DNA of 64,000 nucleotides from Calditrichia bacterium (GTDB taxonomy: Bacteria > Calditrichota > Calditrichia > RBG-13-44-9 > J075), in the NCBI GenBank assembly GCA_028284905.1, contig JANQQU010000072.1:124001-188000 (forward strand). The letters run 5' to 3'. Within the stretch, counting starts at the first letter, position 1. Each line of letters opens with the position of its first letter. Shown here one piece after another: positions 36,971 to 54,180 of this stretch. The notes below the pieces were generated by a model. The model worked only from the letters and a program-made list of their open reading frames with translations, searched no databases and was not told the DNA's origin. The position numbers and the translations under genes were made by a program.

Positions 36971-37019
36971 TTGCTCGTTGTTCGTTGTTCGTTTTCGAAG
37001 AACGATCAACGATCAACGA
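36971..37019. repeat. Inverted heptamer repeat (TTGTTCG / TCAACGA)
   Basis: Units TTGCTCG, TTGTTCG, TTGTTCG, then TTTTCGA and the near-complementary AGAACGA, TCAACGA, TCAACGA. The array changes orientation in the middle, so it can fold into a long imperfect hairpin, and it is followed by TTTTTT on the + strand. It sits in the gap between the DUF3667 gene and the alcohol dehydrogenase gene. Confidence 0.75.
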
Positions 37020-37049
37020 TTTTTTACTGTATTCCCCACGGGCAGTTAC

Positions 37050-42745: not shown

Positions 42746-42946
42746 GGAAGTTGGAAATGCGGAATGCGGAATGCGGAATTAGGAATTCGGAATTCCGCAT
42801 TATCATTTTTACTTTCGTTTTATTCATGACCGCCGAATTGATTGCGGAGTATTACTAATGAATTACTGCTAATTCTTTATTTCAAAACACCTCTTGTTAA
42901 GTCTGGAAATTCCGAATTCCGCATTCCCAATTCCGCATTTTCATTA
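42746..42946. repeat. GGAATGC-type heptamer arrays around a duplicated gnd 3' end
   Basis: Between zwf and gnd, period-7 units of the GGAATGC/GGAATTC type run at about 42755-42799, and their complement (ATTCCGA, ATTCCGC and variants) at 42907-42938. Between them, 42811-42850 is a near copy of the last ~40 bases of gnd (42949-42989). The gap is therefore a tandem duplication of repeat array plus gene end. Confidence 0.8.
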
Positions 42947-49617: not shown

Positions 49618-51792
49618 GTGAGAAAGATCGTGCAAAAGAAATTATCCAAAATACTCCCATCCCGTCCCTTCCGGTTCAGACGTTACGGTCGTGCGTATCA
49701 TTTACTTATCGAGGACGTTAAGGACTTAGAACATGTTCTTGAGCTCGACGAAGGCCATTGGGTAGCGACAACAGCACCGATCAACACGATCAATATCGAT
49801 CTGATGTTCCTCGATCTCCTCGATGATGACGATGATGGCCGGGTTCGCGCATCCGAAGTAAAAAAGGCGATATCCTGGCTGTTCTCAGTACTAACCGATA
49901 CCAGCGGCATCACTAATGGAAATTTGACCCTTCAATTGGATGCGATTAATTCCGAGACGCCCGATGGCAAGTCTATCTTCGATTCAGCGAAAGAAGTGCT
50001 TTCCCGAATTGACCGGGAAGATGAACCGGAAGTGAAGCTGGACCAGGTGCGGCGCATCCGTTTGAAAGAAAAATTAGGCGGACTTGATAAGGCAGGTATT
50101 GTTTTGGTAGAAGCGGCTGACCATGCCACCACCGAGCAATTCCTGAAAGATATTATTGCCTGCACCGGCGGCGCGATGCATCCCAGTGGCAAAAGAGGCG
50201 TTGATCAGAAGCAGCTGGATGAATTTTTCAAGGTGACCACTAAATATATCGCCTGGTATGAACAGGGAGAATTAGCTTCGGAAAAAGCCACATCAGATAT
50301 TATGCCTTTGGGGAAAGATACTCCGGAAGCATTCAGGCTTTATTCGCAGCTATACACAAAACTGAATCAGTTCTTCGCGCTTTGCGAATTATTACAGCTG
50401 AATCCCAATGCGGAAGAGCAGCTCAGCCTTTATTCCCGTGAACTGACCGACATCAACATTATGGCGACAGATGAGATAAATAATTTGCTGGAAGAATCTC
50501 CATTATCTCTGCCGAATCAAGAGGGCATTTTAATGCTCGACAATATCAGTAATCCGATGTTTGATGAGCGCATGGAAAAATTTCGGTTGCTGGCAATAAA
50601 TCGTATACTTGGCAAAAAAATTCGGCAATTAAATCAATTTCAGTGGCGAAAAATTAAGAGTGCGTTTGAATCACACCAGAAATGGCTGGCAGAAAAGCCC
50701 GACTCGGAAATGGATAAAATATCAATAGATACGCTCCGCAGTTATATCGCCGAAGATTCTTACCGGGACACCGTTAGATATTTGATCGAAGGCAGTCATC
50801 GCACCGCCTATGCTTTGAGTAATTTGCAAATGGTGGAAAAGCTGATTTTGTACCAGGCGAATATCATCTCTTTCGTGAATAGCTTTGTCAGCTTTCCGGA
50901 ATTGTATAATCCAGACACCCGGGCATTATTTGAGATGGGCACCCTGATCATGGACGGACGCCACTTCAGCATGGCGGTAAAAGTGCCGGATCGTAAAAAG
51001 CATATCATCCCCAGCAGCCGCAGCAATATGTTCATCATGTATGTGGAAATCAGCTCCAAGGAAGGGGGGAAATTATATGAAGTGGCGGTGCCGGTCACTG
51101 CCGGAAATCGCGGCAATTTGCACATTGGGAAGTGGGGCATCTTCCGGGACGTATATAACGTCGAAAGACACGCGATGATCGCAGAGATTGTTGAGAATCC
51201 GATTAGCCTGCGGGAAGCAATTATCGCCCCATTTATTCGCCTTGGCCATGCCATTAGCGGCAAGCTGGAAGACATTACCTCCCAGGCGGAAAAAAAACTG
51301 GAGTCGAAAGGCTCGCAGGTTGTTACCGATGTGCATAAGGCAGCGGATCAACCGCCGGCACAACCGAAAAAAACCAACCAAAATGCCCAGGGGGGCCTGT
51401 TGGCCGGGGGCGGTATCGCCGTTGCAGCACTGGGCTCTTCCCTGGCTTTTATCACCAAAACATTATCCAGCATGACGTTGATGGACATCTTCGGCGGCCT
51501 GCTGGCAGCGCTCTTAGCCGTTATTCTGCCGGCAACAATCAGTGCTTATTTGAAACTTTCCCGCCGGGATCTCAGTGCCATTCTGGAAGGTGCTGGTTGG
51601 GGGATTAATGCCCGCATGCGTTTATCACATCTCCAATCCCGTACATTTACCTACCACCCCAGCTATCCGCTCGGTTCCCGCGGCATCGCCCATCGCAGTT
51701 GGTGGTTCATTATCATTGTAACGCTTGCTGTTCTGGCAGGTGTGTATTGGGTATTAAGTAGATATGGCATTATTCCCTGGCAGTTGTTCTAG
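49618..51792 (+). CDS. Large EF-hand-containing membrane protein of unknown function
   Basis: A 724-residue protein I do not recognise by name. Residues 69-80 form a textbook EF-hand calcium loop (DDDDDGRVRASE), preceded by a conserved-looking head (RAYHLLIEDVKDLEHVLELD). Residues ~90-560 are mostly helical and soluble, with a beta-rich patch (YVEISSKEGGKLYEVAVPVT). A Pro/Gln/Lys linker at about 570-588 leads to three hydrophobic helices (about 590-612, 617-642, 693-712) near the C-terminus. A large cytoplasmic or periplasmic sensor-like body anchored at its end is possible. The start is GTG at 49618; no good ribosome binding site is seen. The stop codon TAG overlaps the GGCGGAA repeat array. 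Confidence 0.75.
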   Translation: MRKIVQKKLSKILPSRPFRFRRYGRAYHLLIEDVKDLEHVLELDEGHWVATTAPINTINIDLMFLDLLDDDDDGRVRASEVKKAISWLFSVLTDTSGITNGNLTLQLDAINSETPDGKSIFDSAKEVLSRIDREDEPEVKLDQVRRIRLKEKLGGLDKAGIVLVEAADHATTEQFLKDIIACTGGAMHPSGKRGVDQKQLDEFFKVTTKYIAWYEQGELASEKATSDIMPLGKDTPEAFRLYSQLYTKLNQFFALCELLQLNPNAEEQLSLYSRELTDINIMATDEINNLLEESPLSLPNQEGILMLDNISNPMFDERMEKFRLLAINRILGKKIRQLNQFQWRKIKSAFESHQKWLAEKPDSEMDKISIDTLRSYIAEDSYRDTVRYLIEGSHRTAYALSNLQMVEKLILYQANIISFVNSFVSFPELYNPDTRALFEMGTLIMDGRHFSMAVKVPDRKKHIIPSSRSNMFIMYVEISSKEGGKLYEVAVPVTAGNRGNLHIGKWGIFRDVYNVERHAMIAEIVENPISLREAIIAPFIRLGHAISGKLEDITSQAEKKLESKGSQVVTDVHKAADQPPAQPKKTNQNAQGGLLAGGGIAVAALGSSLAFITKTLSSMTLMDIFGGLLAALLAVILPATISAYLKLSRRDLSAILEGAGWGINARMRLSHLQSRTFTYHPSYPLGSRGIAHRSWWFIIIVTLAVLAGVYWVLSRYGIIPWQLF

Positions 51793-51819
51793 GCGGAAGG
51801 CGGAAGGCGGAAGGCGGAA
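51792..51819. repeat. GGCGGAA heptamer array
   Basis: Four exact GGCGGAA units start at the last base of the preceding stop codon. Confidence 0.9.
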
Positions 51820-51838
51820 GAAACAAAACCCCTTTTAT

Positions 51839-51990
51839 CATTCCGAATTCCGCAATCGACATTCCGCATTCCAAATGAATCTTTTCATTCCGAAATCCGC
51901 AATCGACATTCCGCATTCCAAGTTAATCTTTCATTCCGAATTCCGCAATCGACATTCCGCATTCCAAATGAATCTTTTCATTCCAATTCC
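51839..51990. repeat. Higher-order array of ATTCCGN heptamers, about 47-bp period
   Basis: Blocks at 51839-51885, 51886-51931 and 51932-51978, plus a truncated fourth (51979-51990). Each begins CATTCCGAA and is itself built from 7-nt words (ATTCCGA, ATTCCGC, AATCGAC, ATTCCGC, ATTCCAA). The blocks abut with no unique spacers, so it is not a CRISPR. Confidence 0.9.
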
Positions 51991-52110: not shown

Positions 52111-52140
52111 GAACGAGCAACGATCAACGGACAACGATCA
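52111..52140. repeat. CAACGAT-type heptamer repeat at the 5' edge of the selenoprotein gene
   Basis: Units GAACGAG, CAACGAT, CAACGGA, CAACGAT directly precede the first codon of the signal-peptide-coding region, where a canonical start codon is missing. The words match those at 36999-37019. Confidence 0.75.
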
Positions 52141-54180
52141 ATATTCATAAAATACATCCTGGCTGTTCTCGCTTTTCTGTTCAGCTTTTTCCCGGCCCTC
52201 GCCCAGGATGAATTTCTGGAAATCGGTGTAGAAGAGTTCACATTTTTTGTAGAAATCCTCGATGCGGAAGTATATCCGGATAATCCGGACTTAATCTATG
52301 TACTTGGGGTTGGGGGATTTCTCTTTATAGATGTCTCCGAGGGACACGATCCACGATTGATTGGTCGTCATACACCGCCGACCATTCTGGAACGTTACTA
52401 TAACGGTCAGGCCAGCGGATCCCTGGCTGTCGCTGCCGCCCGGGAAAACGGTCTGGATTTTATCGACATCAGCGATGTTACTAATCCAAATTTACTGACC
52501 CGTTACTGCCACAATGAATTTGCTTATGAAAGTGTCGTTTTCCGGGACTCAATCGCCTGGGCAGCGGTCCATACTGACGGCCTGGAAATTTTGGATATTT
52601 CCGATCCTGCTGCCCCCGCCCAATTAAATTCGGTAAATACCAATCTGGAAAACGCCTGGGATGTTTTTCTCGACAACGATTATCTCTATGTCGCTGATGG
52701 CCCCTCCGGGCTAAAGGTATTCGATCTATCTGATCCGATAAATCCGACGTTCATTTCCAGCATGCCTTTGAGCGGTTACAGTAAAGAGGTCATCGTCCAC
52801 AACAATCTCGCTTATATCGCCGTCGGTGCTGCCGGGTTTGATATTGTCGATGTTTCAAATCCCGCCCAGCCGCAATTCCTCAGTAATTATCGCGGAGGAT
52901 TTGGTCTGACAAATCATCTCGCTTACAACAACGGCGTCATCTTTACCGCCGGTTGGGAACTGGTGGAAGCCGTAGATGTTTCCGATCCACTCAACCCGAT
53001 TCGAATTGCCACGGAAGAAACACCGTACCGTGCGATGGGCATCGCCGCCCGGGATGGCCGGGTATACGTCACCGACTGGTGGATATTCCGTGCTTACAAT
53101 TTCGAAGATTTTGCCGTAGCGGACATCCACATTAAACCGGAAGATAATGATTTCGGCTTCCAGGGAGTGGGAGTTCCGATTACTGAAGAGTATCGCATCT
53201 TCAATTTGGGGGAAAGCAATTTGGAAATTAGTAACATCACTTCTCCCCTGCCGCAATTTACCATCTCGCCGACCGCCCTATCAGTGCCTCCTGGGGATAC
53301 CGGTCGGGTAGACATAACTTTTACCCCCACGGGCCTGGGAACTCGCTTCACGGTGCTTACTTTTTCTAATAACGACCCCGATGAAGCGGAAAAAAAGATG
53401 AATGTTTTTGGCGGTCAATCCCGATTATCTCCGGGGGACAGCGCCAGAACCTTTGCGCTTAATGATATCGACGGTAATCTTCACATGCTGGAACAGTATC
53501 GCGGCAAGGTTGTACTGTTAATATTTTTCGCCACCTGGTGACCGGTTTGTGGTCCGGAGTTGTCGGACGTGGTGACTACTTTTCAGCAAGCTTATGATAC
53601 CAGCAAGGTAGTGATTCTCGGTATTAATCGCGAGGAGAGCGAGCATATCATCCGGGCTTTCGGGCAAAATTTCGGACTGACCTATCCGCTACTGATGGAT
53701 ACGGACGGGTCGGTGTGGTTATCTTATCGTATTCAGGGATTCTCCCCTTTTCCGCTGGACGCGATTATCGATCAGCAGGGAATATTGCGTTATCTGAATC
53801 TGGAATATGATCCACCGGAGATGATTGAGATTATCGACAATCTGCTCGCTGTTACCGGGATCGCTCCGGATTCTGCCGGCAACGAAAATAGTCCAGACCT
53901 GGCGGCAAACATACCAGTCCGACTGGCGTTGTCCGTTTTTCCCAACCCGACCAACTCGGCGGCGAATATCCGCTTTCGGGCACCATCGGAAGGCGACACA
54001 CGATTATCTCTCTACGATATCCAGGGACGGCGGGTGATCGACAAAAATCTCGGCCGTTTTCAGCCCGGCGAGGACATCAACCATCTCTTGCGCTTAGAAA
54101 CCCAGGCCTCCGGCATCTATTTCGTGGTTATTGAAAATGGGCGTTTCCGGGAAATCGAAAAGCTAGTTTTGTTACGTTAG
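52141..54180 (+). CDS. Secreted LVIVD-propeller/redoxin protein with in-frame TGA at the CxxC cysteine: probable selenoprotein
   Basis: The frame runs 679 codons with a single interruption, TGA at 53539-53541 (residue 467). A signal peptide ends ...FFPALA-QDE. Six LVIVD-type repeats (such as LEILDISDPAAPAQL) are spaced about 43 residues apart from residue 61 to ~290 and form a propeller. An ASH/DUF1573-like domain covers ~325-425. The redoxin domain (~430-585) has GDSARTFALNDIDG, then FFATW-U-PVC, where U is the TGA and the second Cys is kept, and a cis-Pro region FPLDAIID. A sorting domain (FPNPTNSAANIRF...) closes it. A SECIS-like hairpin follows the TGA. No ATG, GTG or TTG precedes the signal peptide; ATA at 52141 occupies the expected place. 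Alternatives are a decaying gene or a sequencing error. Confidence 0.75.
53552..53568 (+). promoter_or_regulatory. Candidate bacterial SECIS element
   Basis: A perfect 5-bp stem GTCCG/CGGAC closes the 7-nt loop GAGTTGT. The loop begins 16 nt after the TGA and has G as its first base. These features fit the known bacterial SECIS pattern (short upper stem, G among the first two loop bases, about 16-37 nt from the UGA). No folding energy was computed. Confidence 0.6.

Follow-up and report, generated by a model that had tools for sequence, protein, structure and literature searches.

The split gene and its domains

The window, by which we mean the whole 64 000-nucleotide stretch of DNA that was analysed, carries on its forward strand a frame of 679 codons followed by TAG, whose sole internal TGA is codon 467 (Table 1). 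In the plain list of open reading frames of the window this gene appears as two ORFs. The TGA stands where a ResA-like CxxC motif has its first cysteine, in the context FFATW-U-PVC. This agrees, in coordinates and in context, with the original prediction that a TGA splits the frame at the first cysteine and that the second cysteine is kept.

Table 1. Features at the locus, in window positions
Feature	Position	Strand	Remarks
47-bp tandem repeat	51838–51990	+	3.3 copies; upstream of the frame
Heptad-type repeat	52112–52141	+	14-bp unit AACGAACAACGATC, 2.1 copies; reaches the first codon of the frame
Candidate LVIVD/Ig/selenoredoxin/T9SS-tail protein	52141–54180	+	Frame, with codon 467 TGA as Sec
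Probable signal peptide	52141–52206	+	Hydrophobic, ends ...FPALAQ; by eye
LVIVD β-propeller	52207–53109	+	PF08309; extent from model strands
HYDIN/ASH-like Ig domain	53125–53388	+	PF22544, 31.0 bits (cut-off 25.5), residues 329–416
ResA/TlpA-like redoxin domain	53431–53844	+	U467-P-V-C470; PF08534 residues 431–568, PF00578 residues 431–551
TGA codon, probable selenocysteine	53539–53541	+	TGA in 7/7 homologues, same column
Bacterial SECIS-type hairpin	53552–53568	+	5-bp stem with 7-nt loop GAGTTGT, or 6-bp stem with 5-nt loop
T9SS type A C-terminal sorting domain	53935–54168	+	PF18962 and TIGR04183

The LVIVD repeats (PF08309) scored 94.5 bits in Pfam over two stretches, the best at residues 212–250, and the redoxin domain scored 65.1 bits as AhpC-TSA (PF00578) and 60.6 bits as Redoxin (PF08534), both above the Pfam cut-offs. 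The C-terminal tail matched the sorting-domain models PF18962 (Por_Secre_tail) and TIGR04183 with 38.6 bits against a cut-off of 27 and 41.0 bits against 23, respectively. Propeller, redoxin and sorting tail had all been proposed from the sequence and stand above the Pfam cut-offs; the ASH-like Ig domain proposed with them is recovered through PF22544, but the ASH model itself falls just under its Pfam cut-off (25.8 versus 27).

In the full-length predicted model the propeller blocks have pLDDT values of 70–96 and the redoxin region is poor, whereas a separate model of the redoxin domain has a mean pLDDT of 93.2. Among the matches listed by Foldseek for the propeller most are WD40-type propellers, with a TMq of about 0.36. 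The top fold match of the redoxin model is ResA (PDB entry 1su9; TM 0.80 on the query) and the best PDB matches are ResA structures; by sequence, the first PDB match is 2ls5, an uncharacterised protein according to its record, with ResA among the best. Glu473 and the prolines at positions 536 and 538 are invariant in the homologues described below and align with the corresponding glutamate and prolines of ResA. From the model and these residues we infer thiol–disulfide exchange by the Sec–Cys pair as the likely chemistry of the domain, and peroxidase activity is also possible.

The protein therefore resembles ResA/TlpA (PF00578/PF08534) in fold, in the position of the W-C-x-x-C motif, in the glutamate and in the prolines. 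It differs in having Sec in place of the first cysteine and in being fused to a propeller, an Ig domain and a T9SS tail. With 74 bits against the 170 demanded by the NCBIfam ResA model (NF002854), it is ResA-like by fold and is not filed as ResA.

Reading of the TGA codon

With the whole protein as query, a search of 40 genomes from the phylum (E ≤ 1e-60; several of the 34 genomes that gave no full-length match are incomplete) returned seven full-length loci in six genomes, that of the window included, each with one TGA. In the seven-sequence alignment the homologues are 42–57% identical to the window protein, the run W-U-P-V-C-G-P-E-L-S-D is invariant and the codon in the Sec column is TGA in all seven. 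A contig scan of named GTDB genomes, run with two patterns of which one has Cys in place of Sec and so may miss TGA copies, placed full-length relatives only under Calditrichota, Calditrichaeota, Calditrichia or Caldithrix, and the phylum of the window is accordingly taken to be Calditrichota. Of its 18 loci, six are full-length and by eye are six already seen in the genome search; the other 12 are remote redoxins that were left out of the analysis.

This conservation bears directly on the possibility that the TGA is a plain stop, in a pseudogene or through a sequencing error. The source is a draft assembly, which would allow for such an error, but the same codon is TGA in 7/7 homologues from six genomes, and the coding sequence is intact before and after it. 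For the family this explanation is refuted, and we consider it very improbable. The original prediction had asked whether homologues carry Cys or U at position 467 and had named stops or frameshifts elsewhere in the domain as evidence against it; the single TGA of each full-length homologue, always at this codon, gives no such evidence against it.

We give a similarly small chance to the idea that the gene encodes two proteins, the propeller ending at the TGA and translation restarting just beyond it. Some copies do have a GTG or TTG after the TGA, yet neither codon is universal: Val469 is GTG in 3/7 and Leu474 is TTG in 6/7, with TTA in L051. A restart here would also truncate the redoxin after its first strands and leave the first catalytic residue on neither chain.

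The window comes from a draft genome of 8.55 Mb in 93 contigs, which encodes SelA, SelB, SelD and tRNA-Sec; their absence had been put forward as grounds for abandoning the selenocysteine reading. The selA and selB genes are adjacent on contig C46, with scores of 507.6 bits for SelA (cut-off 267.9; the gene is truncated by the contig end) and 349.5 bits for SelB (cut-off 242.25). SelD scored 388.6 bits, above its cut-off, and has a single TGA of its own in the context CAG-U-AS. The tRNA-Sec on contig C9 scored 73 bits with Rfam and is a tRNA-SeC with anticodon TCA according to ARAGORN; the Rfam cut-off is not specific, as a match of 47.9 bits on contig C80 also passes and is a tRNA-Ser by ARAGORN. 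SelB (E ≤ 1e-60) is found in all six carriers of the LVIVD Sec gene, but it is so common in the phylum (30/40 genomes) that this adds little and the co-occurrence is uninformative.

The in-frame TGA might also be read through non-specifically or be recoded generally, as Trp or Gly. TGA is, however, the stop of six of the 37 non-overlapping window ORFs of at least 180 aa (the two ORFs of the Sec gene excluded), and it also ends the L043 homologue itself, which makes general recoding unlikely. The site is moreover the catalytic cysteine position and the Sec genes are present, so that we regard this as the least probable of the explanations considered. Given the Sec genes and the TGA in 7/7 full-length homologues, the original proposal that the TGA encodes selenocysteine is strongly supported, and the LVIVD selenoredoxins are very probably a selenoprotein family.

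The hairpin and related selenoredoxins

In the hairpin that follows the TGA, positions 53552–53556 pair with 53564–53568 around the loop at 53557–53563, whose first base stands 16 positions past the last base of the TGA. The 5-bp stem and the 7-nt loop beginning with G, 16 nt after the TGA, are thus present where the original prediction had placed them. The passages of PMC13188914 on the bacterial SECIS model give a loop of 3–9 nt, a stem of 4–16 bp, a G within the first two loop bases, a spacing of 16–37 nt and an energy at or below −7.5 kcal/mol. Drawn with a 6-bp stem and a 5-nt loop, the hairpin fits this geometry, with the G second and 16 nt between; drawn with 5 bp and a 7-nt loop it has the G first but 15 nt between. 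The spacing sits at the lower edge of the range. Its energy is marginal against the −7.5 limit, at −8.1 kcal/mol for an 18-nt stretch and −6.4 kcal/mol for the strict stem.

Folding energy by itself was dropped as an argument for a SECIS element. The 62 nt after the TGA fold no better than shuffled sequences (z = 0.41; 132/200 shuffles at least as stable). Counting both strands, the window has 2006 TGA trinucleotides, and by the same rules 85 of them are followed by a hairpin as stable or more so. Rfam at gathering cut-offs reported tRNA only, and no SECIS element, over the window, and the three matches in a permissive scan of 53300–53800 were all at chance level. The hairpin alone is thus unremarkable, and its weight comes from its conservation.

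That conservation is visible in the codons that encode it. Across the seven genes, codons 471–476 (GPELSD) have a third-position identity of 0.90, ranking first among 588 gap-free six-codon segments with a mean of 0.368 and a standard deviation of 0.101. This identity was never matched in 100 000 resamplings that drew on invariant columns of the same residues, in pools of 3 to 20 columns per residue.

Within the LVIVD family the stem hardly varies, and RNAalifold on four of the seven homologues accordingly found next to no covariation; paralogues sharing the register were therefore compared instead. The hairpin stands in the same register in three further kinds of Sec redoxin, represented by L028 with L107, by L106 and by L113. 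In the resulting set of 11 genes (ten distinct rows) every one of the 50 stem cells is paired, two of the five stem pairs show compensatory changes (G-C to A-U and C-G to G-C), and pairing falls to 12–44% when the partner is shifted by 1–3 columns. The percentage paired, the number of cells changed on both sides and the covariation score were each reached by 0/500 shuffles, whereas 381/500 shuffles reached the observed two pairs with changes on both sides. The rows were picked for their shared register, so that the count leans towards structure; nine rows of the [FL]G[YW]xU type described below, with hairpins seen by eye at other spacings or codons, and SelD were left out. All five pairs occur in the same register in one of 30 sites of Cys homologues, a control drawn from 29 loci with a motif filter, in which non-fitting sites were uncounted and L085, L089, L094, L095 and L097 were left out. 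The hairpin is accordingly under constraint in the Sec genes.

The paralogues come from a survey of the 40 genomes with a profile of 18 redoxin domains, the counts of which are lower bounds. Besides the LVIVD group there are at least 14 TGA-bearing redoxins, L021 and L028 among them, and 13 of the 14 that were read have a U-x-x-C active site. In the fourteenth, L108, the TGA is the end of the gene itself. Nine of the 14, from at least eight of the 40 genomes, are short redoxins that share the motif [FL]G[YW]xUxxC and form one clade (L021 on contig C26, L109–L112 and L114–L117). Predicted folds place a hairpin after the TGA in every member. A PNPF-type tail is seen by eye in all nine, and L021, the one member tested, also passes the tail profile. 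U-x-x-C redoxins with T9SS-like tails thus occur beyond the LVIVD group in at least nine of the 40 genomes, and since L021 lies in the genome of the window, that genome holds at least two tail-bearing selenoredoxins. The window gene is thus no lone case, as the phylum has several selenoredoxins that bear a tail.

A third, longer form is represented by L106 (G030:C372), a 490-aa frame with the Sec redoxin FATWUSGC, further sequence and, by eye, a PNPF-type tail. L117 (G008:C296) looks degraded, with two TAA codons and an additional TGA on top of the one for Sec. L113 (G037:C80) has a Sec redoxin with CQUNQC, and a second frame with FFSYTUSIC lies nearby; the two may be adjacent selenoprotein genes. 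L028 in the window genome and L107 in G006 are small, exported-looking U-x-x-C redoxins (AASWUPFC) with no sorting tail.

A tree of 55 of the 60 redoxin domains (five were dropped as short, cut or off-family) supports the LVIVD group (seven members) at 100/100, the [FL]G[YW]xU group (nine) at 100/100 and a group of six tail-bearing Cys redoxins at 97/94. The order among these groups is not fixed by the tree, so that single and multiple gains of Sec both fit.

Set against known selenoproteins, the U-x-x-C redoxin is a familiar kind. A 2026 review (PMC13188914) gives 119 selenoprotein families or subfamilies in its Table 1, among whose U-x-x-C types are the Prx-like thiol:disulfide oxidoreductase (PF00578), the Redoxin family protein (PF08534) and thiol-disulfide isomerase-like and TlpA types; with these the window protein shares the superfamily and the U-x-x-C replacement. 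By family name, which was the basis of comparison rather than representative sequences, no entry of that table is called after LVIVD repeats, a propeller or a tail for sorting. It does include envelope selenoproteins, namely the FCYXU type of TonB-dependent receptor, the MtrB/PioB barrel and the ExtKL cytochrome, which are alike in combining Sec with the envelope but have unrelated folds and no T9SS tail named there. The passages searched in a 2022 review (PMC9312934) contain neither 'propeller' nor 'secreted'. Judged by title and abstract, none of the papers found looked relevant to a selenoprotein with LVIVD, type IX secretion, a sorting domain or Calditrich-, or to selenocysteine in Caldithrix. 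The LVIVD fusion and its T9SS-tailed setting appear to be new within the searches made.

The NCBIfam selenoprotein models that match the window protein stay far under their cut-offs: OS_HP2_seleno 19.5 of 100 bits (on the Ig part), WAxxUGC_long 16.2 of 300, redoxin_TUGYCR 15.1 of 100 and SelL_rel_redox 14.3 of 120. The LVIVD/choice-of-anchor B surface proteins (PF08309, TIGR04312) resemble it in their LVIVD repeats, but it scored 27.6 bits on TIGR04312 against a cut-off of 100. Proteins of the choice-of-anchor B group have a C-terminal anchor or tail, and we know of no redoxin domain among the LVIVD/choice-of-anchor B proteins.

Export, genomic context and the window copy

The window genome encodes the T9SS proteins SprA (591.4 bits for the main piece, above the cut-off; a TAA interrupts one small piece of the match) and PorU sortase (810.3 bits, above the cut-off), and the tail region of the query protein is matched at many other places in it. 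The presence of SprA and PorU makes export of the Sec protein by T9SS plausible.

In our view, the window gene is a member of a selenoprotein family of the Calditrichota whose products are exported and probably sorted to the surface, a reading to which we assign a probability of about 85%. In the mechanism proposed, SelB would use the hairpin just downstream of the UGA to bring in Sec-tRNA, the signal peptide would take the chain into the general secretion pathway and the C-terminal tail would guide it through the T9SS across the outer membrane. Outside the cell, Sec467 and Cys470 of the ResA-like domain would form a selenol–thiol/selenenylsulfide pair active in thiol–disulfide exchange, and the propeller and Ig domain would place the redoxin on a partner or on the matrix.

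A candidate for a partner is found in the gene neighbourhood. At L052 and L053 the order is a Cys-redoxin with a tail, the Sec gene and a PF03692 gene (assigned by Pfam for L052 and by BLAST to L052 for L053), and at L056 a Cys-redoxin is followed by the Sec gene. The Sec gene is thus co-encoded with a tail-bearing Cys-redoxin at three of the seven loci, and from this co-encoding the latter is the likely redox partner of the Sec protein. No Cys-redoxin adjoins the Sec gene at L054 and L055, and the sequence of L057 starts just 472 bases upstream. We lean, with less confidence than for the family itself, towards a broader reading in which the Calditrichota display selenoenzymes on their surface through the T9SS in at least three architectures (the LVIVD-propeller selenoredoxin, the short [FL]G[YW]xU form with a tail and the longer form with a tail) and in which the propeller form and the co-secreted Cys-redoxin would together carry out selenium-dependent thiol chemistry at the surface.

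Bacterial selenoproteins are mostly regarded as cytoplasmic or periplasmic redox enzymes. A conserved T9SS-tailed class, if true, would take the use of selenocysteine to the cell surface and offer extracellular Sec–Cys redox pairs that can be tested. Annotation is likely to split T9SS-tailed Sec genes into two truncated products, and for this reason the selenoproteomes of uncultured phyla are probably undercounted.

The window copy itself departs from its relatives at the N-terminus. Its frame is open from 52090 but has no ATG, GTG or TTG before 52357 (codon 73), which lies inside the propeller; as the protein sequence ahead of codon 73 is conserved, the true start has to be further upstream. 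The relatives have a similar hydrophobic start ahead of a conserved DE motif, and a simple scan upstream of the window frame gave no promoter-like site. A conventional start codon is thus missing from the window copy, and the claim for the family rests on the relatives, all six of which have one. The window copy may have a non-standard start, have been silenced recently or contain an assembly error.

Recent silencing, in which the family are real selenoproteins and the window copy has moved from the operon and lost its start and promoter, is compatible with the explanation preferred for the family, and we hold it to be a serious though tentative alternative for this copy. It would account for the missing start codon against ATG or GTG in 6/6 relatives, and for the repeats that extend to the first codon of the frame. 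It would also account for the gene order, as the Sec gene stands alone in the window, outside the operon kept by three relatives: on contig C36 of the same genome (L020) the Cys-redoxin and PF03692 genes lie 6 bases apart without the Sec gene that L052 and L053 hold between them, and the window gene is the single full-length match in its genome. Against silencing, the 679-codon frame and the hairpin are intact, and at the 150 positions invariant in the other six sequences the window copy has 11 deviations, within the range of 6 to 24 shown by the others. The gene in G006 likewise lies away from the Cys-redoxin yet has a normal start.

Two further observations concern these surroundings. At L020 (1069–2283) the Cys-redoxin with its tail is followed directly by the PF03692 (CxxCxxCC) gene. 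Heptad-type repeats (AGGCGGA, AACGATC, AATTCCG and AATGCGG) occur in intergenic gaps and sometimes reach stop or start codons; in the window, intergenic repeats lie at 36971–37020, 42756–42802, 42908–42939 and 51791–51820 as well as at the two sites in Table 1, and the stop codon of the ORF at 49618–51792 merges into an AGGCGGA array.
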